Below, one piece after another: positions 1-30,926 of a DNA stretch of 34,503 bases. The DNA lies in assembly GCA_016199675.1 (NCBI GenBank), contig JACQGE010000004.1, forward strand, positions 1-34,503, given 5' to 3'. Origin of the DNA: Acidobacteriota bacterium. GTDB taxonomy: Bacteria; Acidobacteriota; Terriglobia; 2-12-FULL-54-10. Every line of letters begins with the position of its first letter. The first letter of the stretch is position 1. The position numbers and the translations under genes are program-made. The notes beneath the pieces are model-generated. The model made no database searches. It had not been told where the DNA came from and saw only the letters and a list, made by a program, of their open reading frames with translations.

Positions 1-38
1 AATCCGCAGGTCCCAGGTTCGAGCCCTGGTCGGGGAGC
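1..38 (+). tRNA. 3' part of a tRNA gene (T-arm and acceptor 3' strand), truncated by window start
   Basis: CCAGG-TTCGAGC-CCTGG T-stem/loop followed by TCGGGGAGCC; anticodon is outside the window. Confidence 0.7.
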
Positions 39-256
39 CGTCTAGGTGCAAAGCTGACCCCTCGATAGATCACCGCGCCTTACCGTCAATCGCCCGGCCA
101 AGTCGTTGTCACTGCCTCGCATTTGCACGAGGCCGGAACAAATCGAATCCGACTCCAGCGGTAGTGGTGGTGAAAATGGAATTAACCCGGTGACCCGCTG
201 AGCAAGCCGTCGTCAATTGCTGCTCGTCGCACTCGTGGCTGAAGGCCTCGCCGATC

Positions 257-349
257 CCTTGCAATACCCATAAGCGGCGAGTAGGCTTTGCTGCTAGGGG
301 AGGTTTCAATCCACGTATCCGTAGGCCCCCGTGTTACTCAAACGGGGGT
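257..349 (+). promoter_or_regulatory. Structured leader repeat, copy 1
   Basis: Shares CTTGCAATACCCATAA, GAGTAGGCTTT, GGGGAGGTTT and GTATCCGTAGGCCCCCGTGTTAC with 2750-2843; two hairpins (AGCGGC/GCTGCT and CCCCCGT/ACGGGGG); ends 23 nt before the ATG at 373. Confidence 0.75.
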
Positions 350-372
350 GCCGATTGTTGCAGGGAGGCAAC

Positions 373-1704
373 ATGAAGGAATTCAAGACTAGAAAGCTGC
401 GTCTGCAGGACATCTACCTCGACAATGAGAACGCGCGGCACGAACCGATTGACAGCGAGCCCGAGATTATTGCCGAGCTTTTGTCGAAGGGGAAAGTGAA
501 GGCCCTCGCGGCCCACATTGCGAAAACCGAGGCCACAAGCCCATTGGACCGGGTCGGAGTGTTTCCGCATCCAATAGTTAAAAGCGCTTTTGTTGCCGGC
601 GAGGGGAACCGTCGGCTTTGCGCTCTTAAGCTATTAAACGATCCGGACAAAGCGCCCGATTCACACCGCGCCTATTTCCGCAGTTTATCTAATTCGATGT
701 CGGCGAAGCCGAAAGAAATTGAAGCCGTAATTTTCGACGACCGAGCTGCGGTTAGGCCCTGGATAGAGTTGCGCCATGAGGGGCCGCAGAACGGCGTCGG
801 CACCGTCAGCTGGGACCCGAGGGCGAAGGCTCGTCACAATCGAGGTGCTGCAAAGCCGACAAATCCCAATCTACTCGCGGTGTCCGTCGCTGAGTACGCC
901 CATAAGCGCGGACTGATTACGAAATCTGAGCATGACGGCTTAAATGTGACCACCCTCACAAGGTATTTGAGCAACCCCACCTTCCGAAATGTCTTCGGCC
1001 TCGCCTCGCCCAAGGAGCTTTCCATCGTCGTCGATCAAGCCGAATTCGACTCCGCCATTGGACGATTCCTGAAGGACTCGCTCAAGGGTGAAGACGGCGG
1101 GGTCAATTCGCGGAGCAATGCCACTCAGCGAACAAAATATGCGCGCAGACTACAAAAAGAAAAGGTCGCTCCGACTACGTTTTTTGAGGACCCCGTTCCG
1201 CTCGACCCAGCGACAGGAAGTGGGCCGCAGTCCCGTGGCAAAGCTCCTGGAAGAAGGAATAGCAGCAACCCAGACCATCGGCGTCATGTAATCCAGCCGC
1301 CTTTCGCAGCAAAAATAACGAACAAGGTGCTGGCTCGAATTTACTTCGAGCTACGTGAGGTGGATTGTCAGAGCCACCCGCTGGCTGCTGCTTGTCTTCT
1401 CCGTGCAATGATTGAGGTGCTGATAAAGCTTTTTTGTAAACAAGAGGGCATCGGCACCAATGGGATCAAGGTGAACGTCCTCTGCGGGAAGGTCTGCGAC
1501 AAGCTGCTGGCGGACGACCCTACGCTAAGAAAACAGCGCCTTAAGCCCATGCGCATAATGGCAAACGACGAACACGGGCTTGCATCTCACGACACCTTGA
1601 GTTCGTTTATTCACGGCGGCTCTATTCCAGACGGGCGGTACATCAATAGGACGTGGGATTCGATTGAAGATTGTATTGGGCTGATACTGAGCAAGCTTAA
1701 ATAG
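373..1704 (+). CDS. ParB/Srx-like N-terminal domain protein
   Basis: ATG preceded by AGGGAGGCAAC. N-terminal LRLQDIYLDNENAR...VAGEGNRRLCALKLL resembles the ParB/Srx fold; C-terminal region unassigned. Confidence 0.6.
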   Translation: MKEFKTRKLRLQDIYLDNENARHEPIDSEPEIIAELLSKGKVKALAAHIAKTEATSPLDRVGVFPHPIVKSAFVAGEGNRRLCALKLLNDPDKAPDSHRAYFRSLSNSMSAKPKEIEAVIFDDRAAVRPWIELRHEGPQNGVGTVSWDPRAKARHNRGAAKPTNPNLLAVSVAEYAHKRGLITKSEHDGLNVTTLTRYLSNPTFRNVFGLASPKELSIVVDQAEFDSAIGRFLKDSLKGEDGGVNSRSNATQRTKYARRLQKEKVAPTTFFEDPVPLDPATGSGPQSRGKAPGRRNSSNPDHRRHVIQPPFAAKITNKVLARIYFELREVDCQSHPLAAACLLRAMIEVLIKLFCKQEGIGTNGIKVNVLCGKVCDKLLADDPTLRKQRLKPMRIMANDEHGLASHDTLSSFIHGGSIPDGRYINRTWDSIEDCIGLILSKLK

Positions 1705-1762
1705 TTCTGGCCAAGTGTCCCGCGGTCGGCTACGATCGACGCACCAATGAGCGCTCGTCTCC

Positions 1763-2665
1763 ATGCCCGTCACTGACTCCCCTCTCCGATATCCCGGGGG
1801 AAAGAGCCAGCTTGCCCCCCTAGTCATCGATATCCTGCGCTCGAACAGGTTGCTTTATGGCATCTATGTTGAGCCCTTCGCAGGCGGCTCTGGACTTGCG
1901 TTGAAGCTGCTCCTCAACAGCCTTGTGAGCGAGATATACATAAACGACATCGACCGCTCGATCTACGCCCTGTGGCATAGCGTGCTCAATTCGACCGATG
2001 AGCTGTGCGCACGCGTGGGAAAAGCCAAGGTCCACATAACTGAATGGCGCAGGCAACGGGCTGTCCAGGACGCTCGATATTCCACATTGCTGGACCTGGG
2101 GTTCTCGACCCTGTTCATGAATAGGACAAATCACTCAGGCATTATCCGTGGAGGCGTGATAGGCGGTTTCGATCAAAATGGGCCATACAAAATTGATTGT
2201 CGATTCCGCAAAGGGGAATTGATAAGAAAAATAGAACGGATTTCTAAGTACAAGCCAGGGATACACCTTAGCCGAATGGATGCACTTCAATTCCTGACCA
2301 AGGTAGTTGCCAAGAAGGTCCAAGGACCAGCGCTGGTGAACCTCGACCCTCCTTACATAAGAAAGGGACCCGAGCTTTATCAGAATCACTACACGATGGA
2401 CGACCATGCCCGCCTTGCTAAGGCGGTCCGAGGGATCAAGCAATACTGGATGGTGACCTACGATGACACGCCTGAGGCAAGAGCCCTATATGTTGATTTC
2501 CCGTCGTTCACGCAGGAACTGAAGTACACCGCCCAGATTAAGAGGGTCGGCGTTGAACTGCTAGTCCTAGACCCGAGGCTTGATCTGCCGAGATCATTGA
2601 GCCAAGTTCAGCGCTTGGCGGCCTGCAAAGGGAAGGCCCGCGGAGAGGGTAGGCGGGATCTGTGA
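1763..2665 (+). CDS. DNA adenine methylase, D12 class
   Basis: LRYPGGKSQLAPL, FAGGSGLALKLL and NLDPPYIRKGPELY motifs. Confidence 0.9.
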   Translation: MPVTDSPLRYPGGKSQLAPLVIDILRSNRLLYGIYVEPFAGGSGLALKLLLNSLVSEIYINDIDRSIYALWHSVLNSTDELCARVGKAKVHITEWRRQRAVQDARYSTLLDLGFSTLFMNRTNHSGIIRGGVIGGFDQNGPYKIDCRFRKGELIRKIERISKYKPGIHLSRMDALQFLTKVVAKKVQGPALVNLDPPYIRKGPELYQNHYTMDDHARLAKAVRGIKQYWMVTYDDTPEARALYVDFPSFTQELKYTAQIKRVGVELLVLDPRLDLPRSLSQVQRLAACKGKARGEGRRDL

Positions 2666-2749
2666 CTTGACTCTTATTGCTTGGCTTTGAGCGTAATTTG
2701 CAATTCCCATTGGTGCCCATTTCTGCTCGCGTCGGGGACCCGCACCCTT

Positions 2750-2843
2750 CCTTGCAATACCCATAACGGGAGAGTAGGCTTTTCTCCTTGGGGAGGTTTT
2801 CTGTCCATGTATCCGTAGGCCCCCGTGTTACCTCATCGGGGCC
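2750..2843 (+). promoter_or_regulatory. Structured leader repeat, copy 2
   Basis: Diverged copy of 257-349 with both hairpins retained, including compensatory pair changes; ends 34 nt before the ATG at 2878. Confidence 0.75.
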
Positions 2844-2877: not shown

Positions 2878-5049
2878 ATGACAACAATAACCTTCACCAG
2901 GCCTAACCTACTTGGAATTCTGGCGGCGGAATCAGACCGTGAAATGCTTAATAAGGCATTTCTCGAAACTCCAGACTACCGCACTCTCATCGAGACCTCA
3001 GATCGGATTGTAGTAGTCGGTAGGCGCGGCACTGGAAAGAGCGCGCTGGCAATTGCATTAGAGAAGTATTGGCGCAATGTAGAACGCACCAAGCTATTGA
3101 AGCTTACGCCGGAGGAACATCATGTAATCGGTGCCCGCCCGCTAATTCAGCTGTTCGGAGGTTCCTTTTCAAGAATTCGAGCGGGTTCCAAATTGCTTTG
3201 GCGTTACTCCCTAATGATGGAGGCTGCCCATGCGCTCGCCCCGCGGTTTTCGTTCTCGCATACAAAAGAGTACGAACTCCTGAAGGCGCCTATCGAAACG
3301 TGGCTACGCCGCGGCCCCACAATTCCCGACCGCTTTACAAGACTACTGAAAGACGCTGTGGACCCAAGTCGCTCCCCAGAGGAACGGATTGGGGATCTAC
3401 CAATTAAGCTCGATCTCACAAAGATCGAAACTGCGCTCGCATCTGCCTGCAAACAAACTAACGAATGCGTTGTTTTCCTAATCGACCGACTAGACGAAGG
3501 GTACGAACCTGACGATATTGGCATTGGCTTGGTAGATGGATTGGTTCAAGCAGCAATAGACCTCAAGGATCGCCTTCCGGGCGTCAGATCCATTGTCTTT
3601 TTGCGCGATAACATATTCCGAGCCGTTCAGGCGCGTGATCCTGACTACACGCGGAACATAGAAGGACACGTACTGCGCTTACACTGGGATCCACCCGACC
3701 TACTTGATTTTGCAGCCAACCGACTCAAGATTGCCCTCTCCATTCACGAGGAGTCCTCTCAAAAGGTATGGAACCTCTGCACTACAGAGGACCTTAAAGG
3801 CATGCCGGGGTTTCTGAAATGCCTTCAGCTCACACTTTACCGACCACGTGACTTGATGGCCCTACTCAATGACGCGTTCTATCTCGCAGGAAAGCAAGGG
3901 CAGATGCACCTTTCGTTACCGCACATTGACGGCACCGCTAAGGCAATATCCGAAAATAGACTCCGCGATCTGCAAAAGGAATACGAGGCTATTATCCCCG
4001 GCTTAGAAGAATACATCGGCGCATTTAAGGGGATGCCACCAGAGCTCGGGATTGCAGAAATCACACCATTCCTGGAACAGACACTCGCGAAGGGCTCAGA
4101 GAATTCACTAATACAGCAGGATTTTCTCATTCTAGATGATGCAAAAACGCTAACTCGCGCCCTTTTCACCATCGGCTTTCTCGGCGCACAGGACACTCTA
4201 ACCGGATCCTTTGTCTTCTCCCACGATGGTCGTACGCCTGATCGCGAATTCAATAGCGGTGACAAAATCTTGATCCATCCGTGTTATCGAATGGCACTCA
4301 ACTGTGCGAAAACGCACCTGGAGCCAGGCGAAGCCGAAGAGATATTTGACGAATACGATATTGAAGTCTCGTCTGAAACTCCAGCAATTCGAAATGCGAA
4401 GATCAGCCAACTGATCCAGCAACTTGAGCAGATCCCCATAGGCAATGATGGGGATGGACTTTTTGAGGTGTGGTGTCATAAGGCTATAAGGATATGTTTT
4501 GCAAAAGGGCTCAGAAACGTAGAAATTAAGCCGAATAAGCAAGCCAATACCCGCCGCGACGTTGTAGCACTCAATCTCGGAGAGGGGAACTTTTGGAACC
4601 GAATTCTGCAGGATTACGGCGCACGTCAGGTTATTTTTGAGATTAAGAACTATCAAGATTTGAAAGCCGATGACTACTACCAAGTGCTTTCATACCTGAC
4701 AGGGGAATATGGGAGACTGGCCTTTGTCGTCACCCGTGATGACACCGTTGACCTATATTCAAAGAGAGATGTCGAGTGGGTACGCAGTTTGCATGCAGAG
4801 CATAAAGTATTAATCGTTAAACTTACCGGCAAGTATTTCTCAAAGTTGCTCTACAAACTTCGGAACCCACAGCGTCACGACGAAATGAACGACGCTCTGC
4901 ACAAAATCCTAAATACCTACACAAGGCTCTATCTGGCAGGCCAAACCAAAACCGAGGCCCGCGAGGAAAAACGTCACCGGCGCAAACATCAAAGAGCACG
5001 GAAAGCTTCGAAGCCGACGAACCCGCTATTAGGAAGAAAGGTCCGCTGA
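2878..5049 (+). CDS. P-loop ATPase with C-terminal nuclease-like region
   Basis: Walker A VVVGRRGTGKSAL, VVFLIDRLDEGYEP Walker-B-like; C-terminal RRDVVALN...QVIFEIKNYQ resembles a PD-(D/E)XK core. Start chosen downstream of the leader repeat. Confidence 0.7.
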   Translation: MTTITFTRPNLLGILAAESDREMLNKAFLETPDYRTLIETSDRIVVVGRRGTGKSALAIALEKYWRNVERTKLLKLTPEEHHVIGARPLIQLFGGSFSRIRAGSKLLWRYSLMMEAAHALAPRFSFSHTKEYELLKAPIETWLRRGPTIPDRFTRLLKDAVDPSRSPEERIGDLPIKLDLTKIETALASACKQTNECVVFLIDRLDEGYEPDDIGIGLVDGLVQAAIDLKDRLPGVRSIVFLRDNIFRAVQARDPDYTRNIEGHVLRLHWDPPDLLDFAANRLKIALSIHEESSQKVWNLCTTEDLKGMPGFLKCLQLTLYRPRDLMALLNDAFYLAGKQGQMHLSLPHIDGTAKAISENRLRDLQKEYEAIIPGLEEYIGAFKGMPPELGIAEITPFLEQTLAKGSENSLIQQDFLILDDAKTLTRALFTIGFLGAQDTLTGSFVFSHDGRTPDREFNSGDKILIHPCYRMALNCAKTHLEPGEAEEIFDEYDIEVSSETPAIRNAKISQLIQQLEQIPIGNDGDGLFEVWCHKAIRICFAKGLRNVEIKPNKQANTRRDVVALNLGEGNFWNRILQDYGARQVIFEIKNYQDLKADDYYQVLSYLTGEYGRLAFVVTRDDTVDLYSKRDVEWVRSLHAEHKVLIVKLTGKYFSKLLYKLRNPQRHDEMNDALHKILNTYTRLYLAGQTKTEAREEKRHRRKHQRARKASKPTNPLLGRKVR

Positions 5050-18774: not shown

Positions 18775-19977
18775 ATGTCCCTCAACCCCGCGATTTCCTA
18801 TTTCGGCGTCACCAACGGCCGGCTGCCGCACCAGGCGTTCGGGATCAAACAGGCCGACCGACTCTTTCACATGTATCTGCTCGGCCGAAGTGGCGTCGGC
18901 AAGACCACGATGCTGGAGACGATCGCGCTGCAGGACATTGGCCACGGCCGCGGCATCGCTGTCATCGACCCTCACGGCGATCTGGCCGAGAGTCTCGTAC
19001 AGCAGGTTCCAGATTGGCGCAAGGATGATCTCGTCTATCTCAACGCCGCGGACCCGACGCAGTCGTATGGATACAACCCACTGCGTGGCGTCAGGGCCGA
19101 CAGAATCCCCTTGGCCGCTTCAGGCCTCATGGAAGCCTTCAAGAAGCTCTGGGACGAGGCCTGGGGAGTACGCATGGAGCATGTGTTGCGGCAGGCCCTC
19201 TATGCGCTCATCGAATACGGCCAGGCAACGCTGCCGGACGTGCTCCGCATCCTCACCGACAAGTCCTTCCGTTATGCCGTGCTCGCCAAAGTGAAGAACG
19301 ACCAGGTGCGCGCCTTCTGGACGAAGGAATTCAAGGAATACAACCCCCGCTATCGCCAGGAATCCATCGCCCCGATCCAGAACAAGATCGGCGCCTTCCT
19401 GGCCGATCCGCGGCTGTACCGCATGCTCACCGCTCCGCCCATTGACCTTCATTTCCGGAAGCTCATGGACGAAGGCAAGATCCTCATCGTTAATTTGGCG
19501 AAGGGACGTCTCGGCGCAGATAGCGCGAATCTGATCGGTGCGCTTTTGGTGACTACCCTAAGCCTCGCCGCCTTCAGCCGGGCCGATGTTGATGAATCAA
19601 AACGTCCCGACTATTTCATCCTGATAGATGAATTTCAAAGCTATACAACCCTCTCTGTCGCAATTATGGTCTCGGAGCTGCGCAAGTACCACGTCGGACT
19701 GGTGCTAGCGCACCAGCATCTGCACCAATTGGAACCGGCGGTCCAGCATGCGGTCTTGGGCAACGCCGGCACCCTCATTTCCTTCCGGATCGGCCCCGAG
19801 GACGCGCGGGTCATGGCACGGGAGTTCGAACCGGTGTTCTCCCCCGAGGACCTGGTGAACCTCCCGAACCACAGCCTATACGTGAAGCTCATGATCGACG
19901 GCGCCCCAAGCCGGCCGTTCAGCGCCAATACGTTGCGTCCGATGGATCTTGAGAGAGCGAACCAATCGGGATCATAA
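18775..19977 (+). CDS. HerA/TraG-like (T4CP-type) ATPase
   Basis: LLGRSGVGKTTML, AVIDPHGDLAESL, FILIDEFQSYTT, LVLAHQHLHQLE. Confidence 0.85.
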   Translation: MSLNPAISYFGVTNGRLPHQAFGIKQADRLFHMYLLGRSGVGKTTMLETIALQDIGHGRGIAVIDPHGDLAESLVQQVPDWRKDDLVYLNAADPTQSYGYNPLRGVRADRIPLAASGLMEAFKKLWDEAWGVRMEHVLRQALYALIEYGQATLPDVLRILTDKSFRYAVLAKVKNDQVRAFWTKEFKEYNPRYRQESIAPIQNKIGAFLADPRLYRMLTAPPIDLHFRKLMDEGKILIVNLAKGRLGADSANLIGALLVTTLSLAAFSRADVDESKRPDYFILIDEFQSYTTLSVAIMVSELRKYHVGLVLAHQHLHQLEPAVQHAVLGNAGTLISFRIGPEDARVMAREFEPVFSPEDLVNLPNHSLYVKLMIDGAPSRPFSANTLRPMDLERANQSGS

Positions 19978-20012
19978 TAGCCGCTCGGTTCATAACCCAT
20001 GGGGAGGGGAAT

Positions 20013-20399
20013 ATGAAGCTGTTGCTGCGGCGGAACCAGAAGGCCGGCATGCTCGGCATGGGCAAGATCGCCTTTATCCTTGAAGTCCGAGCCGAGCTCA
20101 CCGACCAGGAAAAGAAGAACATCGAGAAATACCGGCTCGGGGACACGATGCTCTATGAGCGCGACAAGATCATCGACCCCGGCAAGGGGCTTCTCGGCTT
20201 GGCATCGCGGCTGGCCTTCAAGATGATGAATATCTCGGTGTCGGTCGATGATCTCTCGAACGGCAAGAAGATCGACTGCAAGGACATCGTCGAGATGCTT
20301 GCGGTCGAAGAACAGATCCGGGAAGCCGCCCAGACCTTCAAGAACGTGCTTACCGCAGCCGCCTCCTTCGGCGGTGAGGAGGTTATCGAGCTGAAGTAG
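20013..20399 (+). CDS. Conserved-looking hypothetical between two ATPases
   Basis: 128-aa ORF abutting the next gene, whose ATG follows its stop. Confidence 0.6.
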   Translation: MKLLLRRNQKAGMLGMGKIAFILEVRAELTDQEKKNIEKYRLGDTMLYERDKIIDPGKGLLGLASRLAFKMMNISVSVDDLSNGKKIDCKDIVEMLAVEEQIREAAQTFKNVLTAAASFGGEEVIELK

Positions 20400-23171
20400 A
20401 TGTCGTCCAACCTGTGGAACGGGCTGCTCGACCTGTTCGTCGGAACTGGTCAGGAGCGCGAGGTTCGGGACACCCTCAAACTGTGCGCGGAAGTCACCAG
20501 CGCTCGGAGCGCCTCTCCCTTCGCGGACGAAAAGCGACTCGGCCGGTTTCTCGTTGACCTTATCGCCGAAATCTGCGAGCGCCGCGGCGTGACGCCGTCG
20601 ATTCCGCTTGGCGGGATGCTCTGGGGGACCATCAAGAACCTGCTGTACTTTGACGGCATCCTCGTCGAGCTTCCAGAGGAATCGGTTCTTCGCAACCTCA
20701 CGCTCGAAGAGGGCGTCCAGATGCGCGCGACCTTGAACCGCCAACTGCATTTCCTCACCGACCACGACCGCCTGCTCACCCTCTGGCGCAACAAGCTCTT
20801 GAATCTGTTTGCGGGCCTGCTCGAATACTTTCCGTTGTCGGCCTTCACGGATATCGACGACAACGGAATCGCTGCCGACGAATCGGTCGTGCTGCCGGAA
20901 GCCAAGGCGTATGACCTCTGCGACAACCTCCCGGAGCTGGTCGAGCGGCTCATCGTCTCCTTCTACGACGACGATATCCAAAACGCGCATTTGTTCCAGC
21001 CGCTCCGGGAGCGCTTCAATAGCAACCTGTACCGGGTGTCCGGCATCCCAGACAACACACCGCATGAAGAGGTCAACAGGAGGGCCATTCTTCCCACCAG
21101 AAACAAGAACACGTCGCCGGAGTACCTCATAGAGGCGTACCTGCAGGGGACGCCGTTTCTTCCGATGTTCCACGATACCCTGCCGTTTGCCATTCCGTTC
21201 CCCGCCCGCTTCGAACATACGCACGTCGTCGGCGGGACCGGGCACGGCAAGACGCAGCTCCTGCAGTTCCTCATCAACCACGACTTGGTGCGCGCGATGC
21301 GGGACGGCCGCTCGGTGGTGGTCCTCGACAGCCAGGGCGACTTGATCCGCACAATCTCCCGGCTGGCATATTTTGGCCCCGCCGCCGCCGAGAGCCTTGC
21401 CGACCGATTCGTTCTCGTCGACCCCAACGACGTCGAGCATCCCGTCTGCCTCAACATGTTCGACTTCAACCGGGACCGCCTGAGCGGCTATGCCCCGGTG
21501 GACCGCGAGAAAATCCTCAACGCCACGGTCGAGCTGTATGAATACTTCTTCGGGGCGCTCCTCGGCGCCGAGCTGACCCAGCGCCAGGGACTCATTTTCC
21601 GGTATCTTGCGCGGCTCTTGATCGAGATCCCCGATGCGACCATTCATACCCTCCGGGAACTCATGGAGGACGGCGAGCGGTTCCGTCCATACATGGAGCA
21701 GCTCTCCGGGACGGCGCGGAGTTTTTTCGCGACCCGCTTCTTCGACCGGCAATTCAACGAAACGAAGAAGCAGATCCTCACCCGCCTCTGGGGCGTGCTT
21801 TCCAACGCGTCCCTGGAACGAATGTTTTCCCACCCGACAAACAAGATCGATATCTTCGAACTGCTGAACGAAGGCAAGATCATTCTCATTAACACGGCGA
21901 AGGACCTCCTTGGCCAGGAGGGGTCGGCCATCTTCGGTCGGTTCTTCATCGCCCTCATTGCCCAAGCGGCGGTGCAGCGCGCGGCGCTCCCCCCGCATGA
22001 ACGCCGGCCGAGCTTTGTGTATATCGACGAGGCCCAGGACTATTTCGACGAGAACATTTCCAATCTCTTGCACCAGGCGCGCAAATACCGCGTCGGGCTC
22101 GTCTTTGCCCACCAGAACCTGGACCAGCTCGGCGCGGGACTCCGCTCCAGCGTGCTGGCGAGCACCACGATCAAGTTCGTGGGAGGGGTGAGCGCAAAGG
22201 ACGCCAACGTGCTGGACTCGGAACTCCGGTGTCCCGCTGACTTCTTGATGGCCCAGAAGAAAGAGCGCGACTCCACGGAATTTGCCTGCCACGTCCGCAA
22301 CTTCACCGCGAAGGCCCTCTCTGTGCGCATTCCCCTCGGCTACGTCGAGTCGCTGCCAACGATGGACGCTTCCGAGCAAGAAGAGCTACTCGAAGAGAAC
22401 CGCGCCCGATACAGTACGCCGCCGGTCATCCCCCCGAGCGCTCCGTTTACCCCGACGCCTCGGCCTGCAACCGAGCGCGCGGCTCCCGAACCTCGAAGGC
22501 CAGCAGCACCTCCCAAGCCGGCGGAGGTGCCGGCAAATTCGCAGCCAGAAGTGACGCCTGCGATGCCGGAGATGGCAGTCCAAGTGCGAGAATCCGCTGC
22601 AGTGCAACCTGAAGCGAAGAGAAAACCGCCACCAGCCAGAAAGGAAGCGGTGCAGCCAGGCCGGGGCGGGCAGCAGCACAAGTACCTGCAACATCTCATC
22701 AAGCAGCTCGCAGAAGAACGCGGATTCCGGGCGTCGATTGAGGAAACGATCCTGAACGGCGCCGGGCGCGTCGACGTGTCCCTCGTGCGCGGCAAATCGA
22801 GGATCGCGTGCGAGATTTCCGTAACGACGAACCAGGACCAGGAGTTGGGGAACGTCGAGAAGTGCTTGGCTGCCGGCTACACCGGGGTGCTCTTGGTCGG
22901 GAGCAACGAACGGCACATCAAAGCGCTTGCCAAGTTCGTCGAAGAGAATATGGACGAGAGCGATCAGGGCAAGGTACGGTACCTCGTGCCGGAGCGCTTA
23001 ACTGAGTATTTGGACTCCTTGGGAGAAGCCCCGCCGCCTACGGAGCAGACTGTGCGCGGGTACAAGGTGCGCACCGTGCAGCAGGTGGTGGACCCGAAGG
23101 AGGCGGGCGCGCGACGACAGGCGATTGCGGAAGTGATTGCGCGGTCACTCAAGAGGAATGTTGGAGCGTAA
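20400..23171 (+). CDS. HerA/TraG-like ATPase with C-terminal nuclease-like domain
   Basis: VVGGTGHGKTQLL, VVLDSQGDLIRT, FVYIDEAQDYF, LVFAHQNLDQLG; Pro-rich linker; C-terminal GRVDVSLVRGKSRIACEISVTT. Confidence 0.85.
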   Translation: MSSNLWNGLLDLFVGTGQEREVRDTLKLCAEVTSARSASPFADEKRLGRFLVDLIAEICERRGVTPSIPLGGMLWGTIKNLLYFDGILVELPEESVLRNLTLEEGVQMRATLNRQLHFLTDHDRLLTLWRNKLLNLFAGLLEYFPLSAFTDIDDNGIAADESVVLPEAKAYDLCDNLPELVERLIVSFYDDDIQNAHLFQPLRERFNSNLYRVSGIPDNTPHEEVNRRAILPTRNKNTSPEYLIEAYLQGTPFLPMFHDTLPFAIPFPARFEHTHVVGGTGHGKTQLLQFLINHDLVRAMRDGRSVVVLDSQGDLIRTISRLAYFGPAAAESLADRFVLVDPNDVEHPVCLNMFDFNRDRLSGYAPVDREKILNATVELYEYFFGALLGAELTQRQGLIFRYLARLLIEIPDATIHTLRELMEDGERFRPYMEQLSGTARSFFATRFFDRQFNETKKQILTRLWGVLSNASLERMFSHPTNKIDIFELLNEGKIILINTAKDLLGQEGSAIFGRFFIALIAQAAVQRAALPPHERRPSFVYIDEAQDYFDENISNLLHQARKYRVGLVFAHQNLDQLGAGLRSSVLASTTIKFVGGVSAKDANVLDSELRCPADFLMAQKKERDSTEFACHVRNFTAKALSVRIPLGYVESLPTMDASEQEELLEENRARYSTPPVIPPSAPFTPTPRPATERAAPEPRRPAAPPKPAEVPANSQPEVTPAMPEMAVQVRESAAVQPEAKRKPPPARKEAVQPGRGGQQHKYLQHLIKQLAEERGFRASIEETILNGAGRVDVSLVRGKSRIACEISVTTNQDQELGNVEKCLAAGYTGVLLVGSNERHIKALAKFVEENMDESDQGKVRYLVPERLTEYLDSLGEAPPPTEQTVRGYKVRTVQQVVDPKEAGARRQAIAEVIARSLKRNVGA

Positions 23172-24590: not shown

Positions 24591-24738
24591 ACGACGCTGG
24601 ATGTTCGAGACTATCACAAGGATATATCTTCCCGGATTTCGAAACAGCAGCGCCAACCTGCAACCGAGAATATGGAGCATAGCCTGATTGCAGCACCTTC
24701 TCGGCGATTGTCACAATGCTCAGCAGTATCGTTATCAA
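24591..24738 (-). pseudogene. Truncated cytidine deaminase-like N-terminal fragment
   Basis: TTG start overlapping the YwgA-like stop; EKVLQSGYAPYSRLQVGAAVSKSGKIYPCDSLEHPAS matches the CDA N-terminus; catalytic HAE/CxxC region absent. Confidence 0.55.
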
Positions 24739-25268
24739 CGATCACTTATAACTCGATCTACGGCATCAATAGCCTGTAGAGCTTTGTCGAATGGAATGTG
24801 GGGTTTAATTTGCCTGATGCGTTCTGCACGTTTTTCGGCCGTGTCCTGTGGCATTTCTCGTTTTGTGACATAGAGGGCAGTTGTTAATCGCTCCAACTCT
24901 GATACGTTCTTATTTGCCAATTCATTTGCAGCTCTAGTGATCGTATCAGCGAACTGTGCGAGGATGTCACGATATCTCTTCAGCAAGATATCACCTCTGT
25001 CAGACGGCCTTAACGTGGGTCCATAAGGCTGTGTATTCGGTGATAGCTCCAAGAGACCGTCGGCCCTCATTGAGGTAAGTTCGTCGCGAAGATCGAACGA
25101 GAATGGTCCGTGCTTGTACAAAATAAATTGAAATCCCAAAGGCAGCGAACGCAATTCTTCTGCCCAATACGCTGCCTTTTGAAGGTGCGTTTCTCCGCAC
25201 CAACTACCCTTCTCATGAAGTTGTTTTGCTAATTCAAATAACAAGGCCGTGCGTTCCAAACGCTCCAT
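24735..25268 (-). CDS. YwgA-like protein
   Basis: ALLFELAKQLHEKGSWCGETHLQKAAYWAEELRSLPLGFQFILYKHGPFSFDLRDELTSMRADGLLE. Confidence 0.7.
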   Translation of the reverse strand: MERLERTALLFELAKQLHEKGSWCGETHLQKAAYWAEELRSLPLGFQFILYKHGPFSFDLRDELTSMRADGLLELSPNTQPYGPTLRPSDRGDILLKRYRDILAQFADTITRAANELANKNVSELERLTTALYVTKREMPQDTAEKRAERIRQIKPHIPFDKALQAIDAVDRVISDR

Positions 25269-26596
25269 TATTCACCTCCTTCAGAAATTATTGCCGCCTT
25301 GCTTGATTGCAACCAAGCGTCCGCCTTGGACAAGATCTGCTTGTCCGCAAAAATGTAATCTGTCGAGACCACCGGTAATCTAGCGAGGGTATCGGACAAA
25401 GAAATGGATGAGACAATTCTTCCGTCATGCATTCGAACCGGAAAATCTGGCGAGCCGCCTTTCTGAGAGTATCGGTCATGCCGAATCAGGTCCGACGGAA
25501 ATTCTTTCTGTGCAGCCTTATAAAGTGCCTCTCCTGATTCGGGATTGATTTTTACGTCGTCCGGGCTTCTTGCATATAGCAGCCTGAAATGCGATCGACA
25601 TAAAACCCTCTTTGCTAATGGTGATAGAGGATCTTCCCCGGCTTTCTTACTACGAAGAGCAGTAAGCATCGCTGCCGTCACCTCATTATCAGTCAACGCT
25701 AGGTGACTATCTACGTCTGTTGGGAATTTGCCGTCGGGAAGCCATGCAGACAAGAAATCTTGGAGATGTTTATCGTAAATCCTGCGGACATGGTGCATAT
25801 ACATCTGCGAGTACATCAAATATCTTGCTAACAACAGCGCTTCCGAGGACTGAATTCCGCCTATGTCTACACCTAATGCAGGCTCATTGGTTGATTCTGC
25901 AGTGTCACTGGGTGGTGCAGGCAAGATTCGTAGCGTATCGATCAGACGATAATGGTCGAAGCGACCATACGTGACCCCGGCGTGATAGGAGTCACGAAGC
26001 AGATAGTCCATCCGGTCAACACCAAAAGCGTCGCCCACAATGATTTCCGACAGAATAGCTTCCCAGGCGGTAAATGTTACTTTTGTATCGAACTCCGCTG
26101 CTTTCTTTGGACCGACCGCAAGCTTCGCAATATCCAGAGCTTGAACCTTCATCTCTTGCCAGTAGCCAGCCATTTCGGGGCAAAAGATAAGGTCCCACGT
26201 TAGTCGTTCGTGGTTCCACCCTGCGGGTAAGAGTTCCTTTTCCGCTCCGTGAGAAAAGGGCAGATGGCCAATATCGTGACACAAGGCGGCCATTCGCAGA
26301 ACCTGTCTCCAGTAGTGCCGCATGTGTCCTTCATTAGGCAGGATGTCCTCGATGCTTCTCTCAATATTATTCGCATCAGTGACAACGTCATACACCCGCC
26401 CCGCAAGTTCCATCACCCCCAGGGAATGCTCGAATCTCTTGTGGGTAGCACCGGGATACACAAGGTAGGTAAGCGCAAGCTGATGGATACTCCGTAATCG
26501 CTGGAAAGGCCGTGAGTCAAGAACACGACGCTCTTCCGAGTCGAGCCGGACGAAGACATGGATTGGATCTCGAATTTCGTGGAAGGACTTGGCCAC
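25268..26596 (-). CDS. HD-superfamily phosphohydrolase (YwfO/dNTPase-like)
   Basis: IRDPIHVFVRLD, RLRSIHQLALTYLVYPGATHKRFEHSLGV, MAALCHDIGHLPFSHGAE. Confidence 0.88.
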   Translation of the reverse strand: MAKSFHEIRDPIHVFVRLDSEERRVLDSRPFQRLRSIHQLALTYLVYPGATHKRFEHSLGVMELAGRVYDVVTDANNIERSIEDILPNEGHMRHYWRQVLRMAALCHDIGHLPFSHGAEKELLPAGWNHERLTWDLIFCPEMAGYWQEMKVQALDIAKLAVGPKKAAEFDTKVTFTAWEAILSEIIVGDAFGVDRMDYLLRDSYHAGVTYGRFDHYRLIDTLRILPAPPSDTAESTNEPALGVDIGGIQSSEALLLARYLMYSQMYMHHVRRIYDKHLQDFLSAWLPDGKFPTDVDSHLALTDNEVTAAMLTALRSKKAGEDPLSPLAKRVLCRSHFRLLYARSPDDVKINPESGEALYKAAQKEFPSDLIRHDRYSQKGGSPDFPVRMHDGRIVSSISLSDTLARLPVVSTDYIFADKQILSKADAWLQSSKAAIISEGGE

Positions 26597-27878: not shown

Positions 27879-28114
27879 TGACGTAAATTAACGTAGCAAG
27901 AACGAGGAGGGAGGTGCGTATGAAAGCCAAATGAAAACGGGCAAACCCCGAAGGAGCTTGCCCGTAGTGAACGCGGTACAAGGACCACGTCCGGTTTGGC
28001 GACTGACAGTATCCCTGGACCCCGCTCCTGCTGTCAAGCCCTTCGGCAGAGATGCGCGCACTGTTCCTCAGACTGTACGCGAAGCGATATCCATCTTTTA
28101 CAAGGGCAATACAG

Positions 28115-28426
28115 ATGACAGCAGAAAAACCGGCCGCGGCGCCGCACGCCGCACCTGACCTCATCAACGTTCAAGTCCGCTATCCGGCGGCGCCGAGGCC
28201 ATTCATTGACCCGAAGGCGCAGGCGGCGGAGACACTCGGACAGCTCAAGTCACGGGTGCTCGCCGCCTTCGAAGTGGCTGAAACGCAGGGACCGGAGCAG
28301 CAGGTCTTGTTCTTCTTCTACCACGAGAACGAGCGTCTTGACGATCTTACTCGGACACTCGGTCAAATAGCGGGAGAAGACCGGGTGCTCAAGTTGAAAC
28401 TTGTCCAGCAAATCGTGCAGGGGTAG
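28115..28426 (+). CDS. Prokaryotic ubiquitin-like protein with C-terminal Gly
   Basis: INVQVRYPAAPRPFIDPKAQAAETLGQLKSRVLAAFEV...VLFFFYHENERLDDLTRTLGQIAGEDRVLKLKLVQQIVQG; beta-grasp pattern. Confidence 0.75.
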   Translation: MTAEKPAAAPHAAPDLINVQVRYPAAPRPFIDPKAQAAETLGQLKSRVLAAFEVAETQGPEQQVLFFFYHENERLDDLTRTLGQIAGEDRVLKLKLVQQIVQG

Positions 28427-28429
28427 GTC

Positions 28430-28867
28430 ATGGCCGACGATCTCGCCGTGCTCTGCTTTGAGGCAGATCTTGAAGAGATCGTGGCCGCGCCCGAGTCGGC
28501 GCGATGGACCCTCAAGCGGGGTGACCCGCTTGAGGTTTTTGCCACCATGTCTCCTAGTCGTGCGCCCGGTGAGCAGTTCCAGGTGCGACTCCTCTATCGT
28601 GAATACCCTGGTCTCCCGTCACTAAGATTTCGAGACCCCGCCACGGGAAGGCTCGACAACGCACGCGCGTGGCCGCAATGCCCAGGTTTCCGTCCGCAAT
28701 CACTCGACACCTGCGTGAGCTGGACTGCCGAAGGTCACGCGCTCCATCCGGAGTGGGGCAACGCACCCGCGACGCGGCTGAACCGGACCGGCAACGTGCT
28801 ATTTCGCTCCCTTTGCATATTGCAGGACACGTTGGATTTCGGCTTTACCGGGAGGTATGGAGGATGA
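28430..28867 (+). CDS. E2-like / predicted CEHH metal-binding partner of the Ubl system
   Basis: Position between Ubl and JAB; DTCVSWTAEGHALHPEW contains a C..E.H..H arrangement. Confidence 0.55.
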   Translation: MADDLAVLCFEADLEEIVAAPESARWTLKRGDPLEVFATMSPSRAPGEQFQVRLLYREYPGLPSLRFRDPATGRLDNARAWPQCPGFRPQSLDTCVSWTAEGHALHPEWGNAPATRLNRTGNVLFRSLCILQDTLDFGFTGRYGG

Positions 28868-29391
28868 GCCTCTATGAAAAGATCAAGCACTGGCGGATGC
28901 CGACCAATACGCTCTCCGCGTCTCTTCAGGCGATGGCGCCTGACGGCCTTCGCGGAAACGAAGGCATCGTGATGTGGCTAGGTCGGTCCGCGAGCAACGT
29001 AGCTACGATCACGCATCTCGTCACTTTCGCGGAGCATCTCTTGCGCAAGCGGCCGGATTTCCTGGAAATCCCGCCGAGTACGATGAGCAGGTTGACGGAC
29101 TTGGCGGAAACGCTGGAGGTCTCGCTCATCGGACAGATTCATTCGCATCCGGGCACCTTCATCGACCTCTCTATACCCGATCGGCGCTATGGGATTTCTG
29201 CGCCGTATTACCTCTCAGTTGTTGCGCCGCATTACGCACAGCGCCCTGACACCGATTGGCGCGACTGCGGGGTTCATCAGTTCATTCCGCGCGCCGGATT
29301 TCGACGAGTATCCAACGTCGAGGTGCGCTGGCGTATTGAACGGCTCCCGTTTGCCAATGCAACGTCAATTTCCTTGGGAGAAGAAGCATGA
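28864..29391 (+). CDS. JAB/JAMM metallopeptidase (DUB-like)
   Basis: NEGIVMWLG and QIHSHPGTFIDLSIPD (HxHx7SxxD). Confidence 0.85.
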   Translation: MSLYEKIKHWRMPTNTLSASLQAMAPDGLRGNEGIVMWLGRSASNVATITHLVTFAEHLLRKRPDFLEIPPSTMSRLTDLAETLEVSLIGQIHSHPGTFIDLSIPDRRYGISAPYYLSVVAPHYAQRPDTDWRDCGVHQFIPRAGFRRVSNVEVRWRIERLPFANATSISLGEEA

Positions 29392-30926
29392 TCGATCAAG
29401 ACCTCGCGTACAGCCGCCCGCGGGCGACGGCCGCTCGACTTGCGGCTTACGCGGCAGAAGCGCACCGATTTACTGAAAAGACAGTGCTTCTCACTGGTGA
29501 TGCGGAGACGCTGGCGACAAGTAACGGCACGCTTTGCCTGCTTGACGCTCTTCGCCTCCTCCTTCGGACCGTCAAGCACCTCCACGTCCATGTTCCGCCG
29601 CAGTGTTCGGCGTTGTTGGCCTCTGTTGAAGCGCTCGCGTGCAAGCTCGAATTTGGGACCCCTATCGTGTTCCTTGAGGACATACCGCAGTGGCAACGTT
29701 GCGACGCCATCCTTAGCGTAGGCTGGCGTGTGCGACCGGAACTGCCCTGGACCGCAGTCAACTCGAATGGATGGGTTGCTCGTGTGTCATCAGGGAGCGC
29801 GTTACTCCCGCCCGAATGCGATCAGCACAATCCGGTCGGAGCGCTCGGCGCTGCGTCATTTGGCGTCTCGGAGGTATTTAAGCGGCTCGTCGGTCTGCGT
29901 CCAGAGCGCGGCAGCATGTTCGACCGCATGCAGTTCTCGTTCTACGACTACAGCGTTGATCCGAGCAATCTCGGTCCAATCTTGCTACCTGAACTCCATC
30001 TCCCACCGACGCTCCTTGCCGGCGGCGGCGCGATCGGTAACGGTATTGCACTGCTTGTTAGTCAATTCAACCTGATTGGAAAGATTTGGGTGCTCGATCG
30101 CCAGGCTTTTGGTCCGGAGAACCTCGGCACGTGCGTCATGCTTGGGCCGAATGGGGTTGAGTCTTTGAAGGCCGAATACCTTTCCGCAGAACTCTGTGAC
30201 CCCGGCCGGCTTCACGCTATTCCGCTGACCGGCGAGATTGCGGCGGTGAAGCATGCATTTGGACGAACTGTGCCTTTCCCCGTCCTGGTGCTGGCCGGGT
30301 TCGACAACGTTTCTGCCCGCCATCGCCTGCAGGAGCTTTGGCCGGATTGGCTGATTGACGGCGGTATCAGCGATTTCGGCGTTCAAGTTTCTGCCCACTA
30401 CTGGGGTAGGTCGGTAGGGTGCCTAAAGTGTCAGTTCGTTGAAGAGGTGCATACTGATCACACTACGCTTGCTGCCGAATTGACCGGTCTAAGGCCCGAG
30501 CGGCTTGCATCGCCGGAAGACGTCATCAGGTCAGAGGACGTGGAAGCGGCACCATCGGAGCGCCGCGAGCAACTGCAGCGAAATGTTGGCAAAAAGATTT
30601 GTTCGGTCGTGAGCGAAGCGGCGATAAAGTCGATAAGCTCCGCTGGGGCGCGGAATAGATTCTCTCCTTCCGTGCCATTTGTGGCATGCGCCAGCGCGGC
30701 TCTCGTCTTCAGCAAGGCTCTCAGGCTACTGCTGGAGGGCCGTGATGACGCGCCGCCTCGGTTTGTGTTCGACATCCTCACCGGGCCGGCAGGCGGGGTA
30801 GAACTCTTTGAAAAAGCAAAGGCTACGTGCGATTGCGTGCGGCGGGCATCGATTATCGAGCGCTGGCGCCAGGAAAGGCTATTGGCTCCCGCTGACAACC
30901 TCACGCTATCGGACCAGTTGCTATGA
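29388..30926 (+). CDS. E1-like ThiF-family enzyme
   Basis: LLAGGGAIGNGIALLVSQFNLIGKIWVLDRQAFGPENLGT; CLKC. Confidence 0.85.
   Translation: MIDQDLAYSRPRATAARLAAYAAEAHRFTEKTVLLTGDAETLATSNGTLCLLDALRLLLRTVKHLHVHVPPQCSALLASVEALACKLEFGTPIVFLEDIPQWQRCDAILSVGWRVRPELPWTAVNSNGWVARVSSGSALLPPECDQHNPVGALGAASFGVSEVFKRLVGLRPERGSMFDRMQFSFYDYSVDPSNLGPILLPELHLPPTLLAGGGAIGNGIALLVSQFNLIGKIWVLDRQAFGPENLGTCVMLGPNGVESLKAEYLSAELCDPGRLHAIPLTGEIAAVKHAFGRTVPFPVLVLAGFDNVSARHRLQELWPDWLIDGGISDFGVQVSAHYWGRSVGCLKCQFVEEVHTDHTTLAAELTGLRPERLASPEDVIRSEDVEAAPSERREQLQRNVGKKICSVVSEAAIKSISSAGARNRFSPSVPFVACASAALVFSKALRLLLEGRDDAPPRFVFDILTGPAGGVELFEKAKATCDCVRRASIIERWRQERLLAPADNLTLSDQLL

Follow-up and report, generated by a model that had tools for sequence, protein, structure and literature searches.

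Why do two genes near the start of this contig carry diverged copies of the same leader? The window, the whole stretch of DNA analysed, comprises the first 34,503 nt of contig JACQGE010000004.1 from an Acidobacteriota bacterium. The two copies, each about 93 nt long, lie on its forward strand at 257-349 and 2750-2843, ending 23 nt and 34 nt before the ATG codons at 373 and 2878, respectively. An earlier note on this DNA had reported both copies with these coordinates and distances, all of which were borne out by a repeat search and by a search of the organism's own genome (2.5 Mb in 198 contigs), where copy 1 used as query recovered copy 2 at an E-value of 2e-22. The copies were 88% identical across 82 nt; as direct repeats, the segments 257-306 and 2750-2799 were 88% identical and the segments 297-347 and 2791-2841 were 80% identical. 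Of the 98 columns in the full alignment, 78 were identical, 18 differed and 2 contained gaps. The substitutions showed no clear clustering (longest identical run, P = 0.18; three longest runs, P = 0.065), so that selection is unproven for every part of the repeat. Inspection by eye revealed that the gene frames cross the 5' halves of the two copies in different registers, which excludes a common peptide, and no attC core was seen. A literature search returned nothing to the point on the leader.

To the genes downstream of the two copies we could assign families. Copy 1 precedes PD-Lambda-5_A (373-1704; PADLOC model PDLC04013, 7.4e-152), which has an SD sequence, GGGAGG, at 363-368 and is adjacent to PD-Lambda-5_B on the same strand (1763-2665), a Dam-like D12-class adenine methyltransferase (PADLOC PDLC04018, 5.4e-111; Pfam PF02086, 3.2e-16), the pair spanning 373-2665. 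Copy 2 precedes a P-loop ATPase of the Sll1717 family (2878-5049, forward strand; NF047389, 1.5e-76) that is 44% identical to a protein of the F plasmid. The earlier note had named the two genes ParB-like and ATPase; the second name holds, for a gene that forms a module of its own, whereas the first is replaced by PD-Lambda-5_A with its methylase partner according to PADLOC. Vassallo et al. (2022; PMC9519451) identified PD-Lambda-5 in a functional screen in E. coli and likened it to a compact system that combines RM with Abi. By the PADLOC models both proteins are present here in the same order, the differences being the repeated leader, which was not found when 29 further PD-Lambda-5_A loci were searched, and the neighbouring ATPase module. 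Of these 29 loci, at least 2 of which appear twice in the count, 26 had B close to A and none had the ATPase, although the flank of 7 of them (L010-L016), at most 1.5 kb, is too short for the ATPase to be ruled out there. Because the AB pair travels without the ATPase, the predicted anti-phage PD-Lambda-5 pair and the ATPase are separate modules, each with its own leader copy. An alignment search for relatives of PD-Lambda-5_A yielded 21 loci, all about 25-33% identical. No relatives of A or of the ATPase were confirmed in viral contigs, and no solved structures for either protein were found by sequence.

Both copies contain, at the left end of their homology and without a single difference, TTGCAA followed after 17 nt by TAGGCT, on the forward strand at 259-264 and 282-287 in copy 1 and at 2752-2757 and 2775-2780 in copy 2. 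These hexamers resemble the -35 and -10 boxes of a sigma-70-type promoter (4 of 6 positions to TTGACA and 3 of 6 to TATAAT), in which the -10 box is followed after about 7 nt by the transcription start; the predicted starts would be near 293-296 and 2787-2789. The most likely reading of the repeat, to which we give a probability of about one half, is an old duplication of a promoter together with part of the 5' UTR, and the segment is likely to be regulatory and common to two transcription units. Compared with a bacterial sigma-70 promoter that carries a hairpin in its 5' UTR and is duplicated ahead of two operons, the repeat is alike in the distance of 17 nt between the boxes, in the position and direction before two genes and in a hairpin within the UTR. 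The differences are the weakness of the boxes (7 of 12 to the consensus, with no site in either region in a stricter 9-of-12 promoter scan), a start that is predicted, and an unusually long identical stretch downstream.

We estimated the frequency of such motifs using 302 upstream regions, with both copies excluded. These regions came from the window and from 60 stretches of other contigs (612 kb in total, out of a genome of 2.5 Mb), and a simple script was used to call the open reading frames. The pattern TTG[AC][CA]A-16..18-TANNNT, a motif chosen after being seen in the copies, occurred 9 times in forward and 2 times in reverse orientation, as compared to a mean of 1.3 in shuffles, while the looser pattern TTG-17-TANNNT occurred 23 and 14 times versus 8.4 in shuffles. 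The corresponding chance expectations per 93 nt were 0.003 and 0.019. Since this motif class is enriched upstream of genes, promoters of the TTGCAA/TAGGCT type appear to be used in the genome. Further points against the promoter are that the 23 identical nucleotides GTATCCGTAGGCCCCCGTGTTAC are not needed by one, and that chance is a borderline unlikely source of two compensatory changes in the hairpin considered below (P = 0.008-0.019).

That hairpin, drawn by the earlier note in the left half of each copy (273-295 and 2766-2788, forward strand), has an identical loop, GAGTAGGCTTT, and a stem that changes in compensation. The stem letters are as it described them: they are compatible with pairing in both sequences and differ by C-G to G-C at columns 20-38 and C-G to A-U at columns 23-35, with a C-C mismatch at columns 19-39. 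The identity of the loop is likewise real, but its meaning as an RNA loop gives way to a simpler reading, as it contains TAGGCT: the 'conserved loop' would be the putative -10 box and its flanking bases, and the variable 'stem' would correspond to the promoter spacer plus the likely start. Six of the 18 differences between the copies fall in the spacer and in the bases surrounding the start, as promoter spacers may allow.

A rival reading in the spirit of the earlier note is an RNA of about 93 nt, either structured and cis-acting or a small RNA, that comprises stem 1 (with the loop GAGTAGGCTTT) and stem 2, would be transcribed from a promoter further upstream and would control or partner each module. 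We consider it unlikely. Its favourable evidence is that stem 1 is near certain in copy 1, that stem 2 occurs in both copies and that stem 1 carries the two compensatory changes. However, the eight pairs of hairpin 1, which form with probabilities of 0.82-1.00 in copy 1, have probabilities of 0.00-0.02 in copy 2, irrespective of whether 0, 20 or 60 nt of flank are included; copy 2 favours another fold in which GGCUUUUCUCC is paired with GGGGAGGUUUUC. Folding energies of the single copies corresponded to z-scores of -1.28 and -1.29, and the RNAalifold energy of the two-copy alignment to a z-score of -1.17, with 127 of 1000 column shuffles equally good. The two tests of compensation were at odds with each other: a local-segment score, the weights of which were set after the data had been seen, yielded borderline P-values of 0.019 and 0.008 for the best segment, whereas a first and cruder score yielded P = 0.10-0.39 for random positions and P = 0.19-0.57 for fixed positions. 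Covariation could be scored on two sequences only, and the observed score was reached by 113 of 500 pair shuffles. Hairpin 1 as a structure kept by both copies was thus unsupported by the pair-probability, shuffled-alignment and compensation tests. A search of the whole window on both strands against Rfam 15 at the gathering score gave no matches. The repeat shares with the leader RNAs and small RNAs of the Rfam kind an intergenic, hairpin-bearing position upstream of genes, and differs from them in the missing Rfam match, a hairpin 1 fold that is not conserved and the lack of a homolog set.

The second stem fared better. As the earlier note had claimed, it persists in both copies, where folding places hairpins at 326-348 and 2818-2843 on the forward strand (pair probabilities of at least 0.92; local z-scores of -3.0 and -3.6) with pairing registers that differ by one base. 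By these folding predictions, it is the only RNA feature that survives as common to both copies. Within the right half, which would be the first part of the 5' UTR, this single GC-rich hairpin would lie at least 14 nt before the ribosome site, and it may steady the messages or serve as a protein-binding site. Copy 2 also contains a possible minigene at 2788-2824 (GGGGAGG, 10 nt, ATG TAT CCG TAG), which we regard as a mere curiosity since copy 1 carries ACG instead of ATG.

For the identification of further homologs, a covariance model was built from the two copies, in line with the Infernal search that the earlier note had called for. No copy beyond the two was found. The model recovered only the known copies in the organism's own genome, nothing beyond that genome among 399 genomes of the class, and one other, weak match (L046, 22 bits) among 396 genomes of the phylum, the two sets overlapping and both being searched with stricter filters; the weak match lies antisense to an oxidoreductase-like frame and was attributed to chance. 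Nor did the model find the leader in 30 loci (the 29 PD-Lambda-5_A loci and the F-plasmid locus). A blastn search of 101 genomes produced a single match (L007), again read as chance, with 22 nt at the end of an apparent open frame. The exact pattern AATACCCATAAN{4,8}GAGTAGGCTTT had no matches in the genomes of 84,980 species, a scan for one exact pattern that diverged copies would escape, and three exact patterns had none in viral contigs. Four matches to a 17-mer in viral contigs were dismissed as chance, the rest of the element being absent and one flanking sequence common. Neither copy matched in plasmids and copy 1 had no match in phages, while a match of copy 2 to a Klebsiella phage (25 nt, E = 0.9) was of the kind expected by chance. 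The earlier note had itself named an absence of further homologs as the outcome that would speak against its RNA, and that objection stands as far as these sequence searches reach. Because hairpin 1 is not predicted to form in copy 2, the consensus fold is no better than that of shuffles and no third homolog was found in these searches, a selected structured RNA is unsupported, and there is no evidence for a new RNA class. We find it distinctly improbable that a lineage-restricted structured leader, whether infection-sensing or protein-binding, couples the PD-Lambda-5 pair and the Sll1717-family ATPase as one RNA switch.

The genome of 2.5 Mb contains the sequence TTGCAATNCCCAT exactly three times, and each occurrence lies at this locus (starting at 259, 2698 and 2752), where 0.20 matches were expected in a scan of the window with one mismatch allowed. 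The repeat could on this basis be mainly an operator that overlaps the promoter, with TTGCAATNCCCAT, and perhaps also the GTAGGC repeats inside each copy, as the recognition site of a DNA-binding regulator of both modules. Such an operator is compatible with the promoter reading as an added layer. However, module 1 has only one TTGCAATNCCCAT site upstream, no regulator was identified, and the third occurrence (2698-2710, forward strand), recognised from the motif count in the genome, may be an operator or a mere fragment of an older duplication. As the main role of the repeat we hold an operator to be rather improbable. With one mismatch allowed, GTATCCGTAGGCCC is present in the genome only within the two copies.

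The copies bracket the AB module, as direct repeats would if they had served to move the PD-Lambda-5 cassette between them or had stayed behind after its movement, and the 3' end of a tRNA-like gene lies at 1-38 of the window. The plasmid relatives of A and of the ATPase are also suggestive of mobility. The best relative of A in plasmids (34% identity) is found in Kosakonia, and the F-plasmid protein is a near-best relative of the ATPase; the Kosakonia PD-Lambda-5 pair and the F-plasmid relative each directly follow a small resolvase gene (tnpR). As the resolvases share 78% identity, the elements align at the DNA level with 73% identity over 804 nt and the F-plasmid element is annotated as Tn3-like, both module types are carried by related Tn3-type elements. 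This context is a lead on how the modules travel, not on the role of the repeat: the repeat model has no match in either of the Tn3-carrying loci (L023 and L024), the copies, short and 88% identical, would be poor recombination substrates, and each is located at promoter distance from a gene. Nor does any such pair precede A at other PD-Lambda-5 loci, with the exception of a 162-nt repeat at L012/L041, between the copies of which we read an ORF6N-like gene from the sequence. That the leader is primarily a trace of mobility therefore seems to us highly improbable.

The contig end itself carries the 3' half of the tRNA-like gene (1-38), with plasmid matches at 1-44, the only part of window positions 1-400 that matched in the plasmid search. 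ARAGORN identified no complete tRNA there. Possibly a tRNA gene marks the start of the island.

Other genes in the window resemble defence genes as well. Four forward-strand genes in a row at 28052-30926 are similar to a diverged Bil system in the order ubiquitin-like protein, E2-like protein, JAB peptidase and E1-like protein. PADLOC recognised BilC (2.4e-9) and BilD (1.9e-17) in this row, for which there were no Pfam matches at 0.001 and no NCBIfam matches at 0.01; the first two genes look like their Bil counterparts as judged from their sequence and order. Two TrwB/HerA-type ATPase genes at 18775-23171 on the forward strand are weakly similar to mad8 of the MADS defence set, and at 24735-26596 on the reverse strand an HD/dGTPase-like protein adjoins one with a likeness to the C-terminal part of DarG.

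Returning to the duplicated promoter, the repeat would go back to an old duplication of a single upstream control region, with a putative sigma-70-type promoter in its left half and the beginning of the 5' UTR in its right half. One copy would drive the PD-Lambda-5 pair and the other the stand-alone Sll1717-family ATPase, and because each would be driven by one promoter copy, the two independent defence modules would switch on together. The identification of PD-Lambda-5 and of an F-plasmid-related ATPase is useful for the annotation of the island. If the promoter reading is right, the locus would represent a small and clean example of two defence modules that travel independently and would be expressed together by means of a copied control region, and co-regulation within a defence island would be directly testable here.
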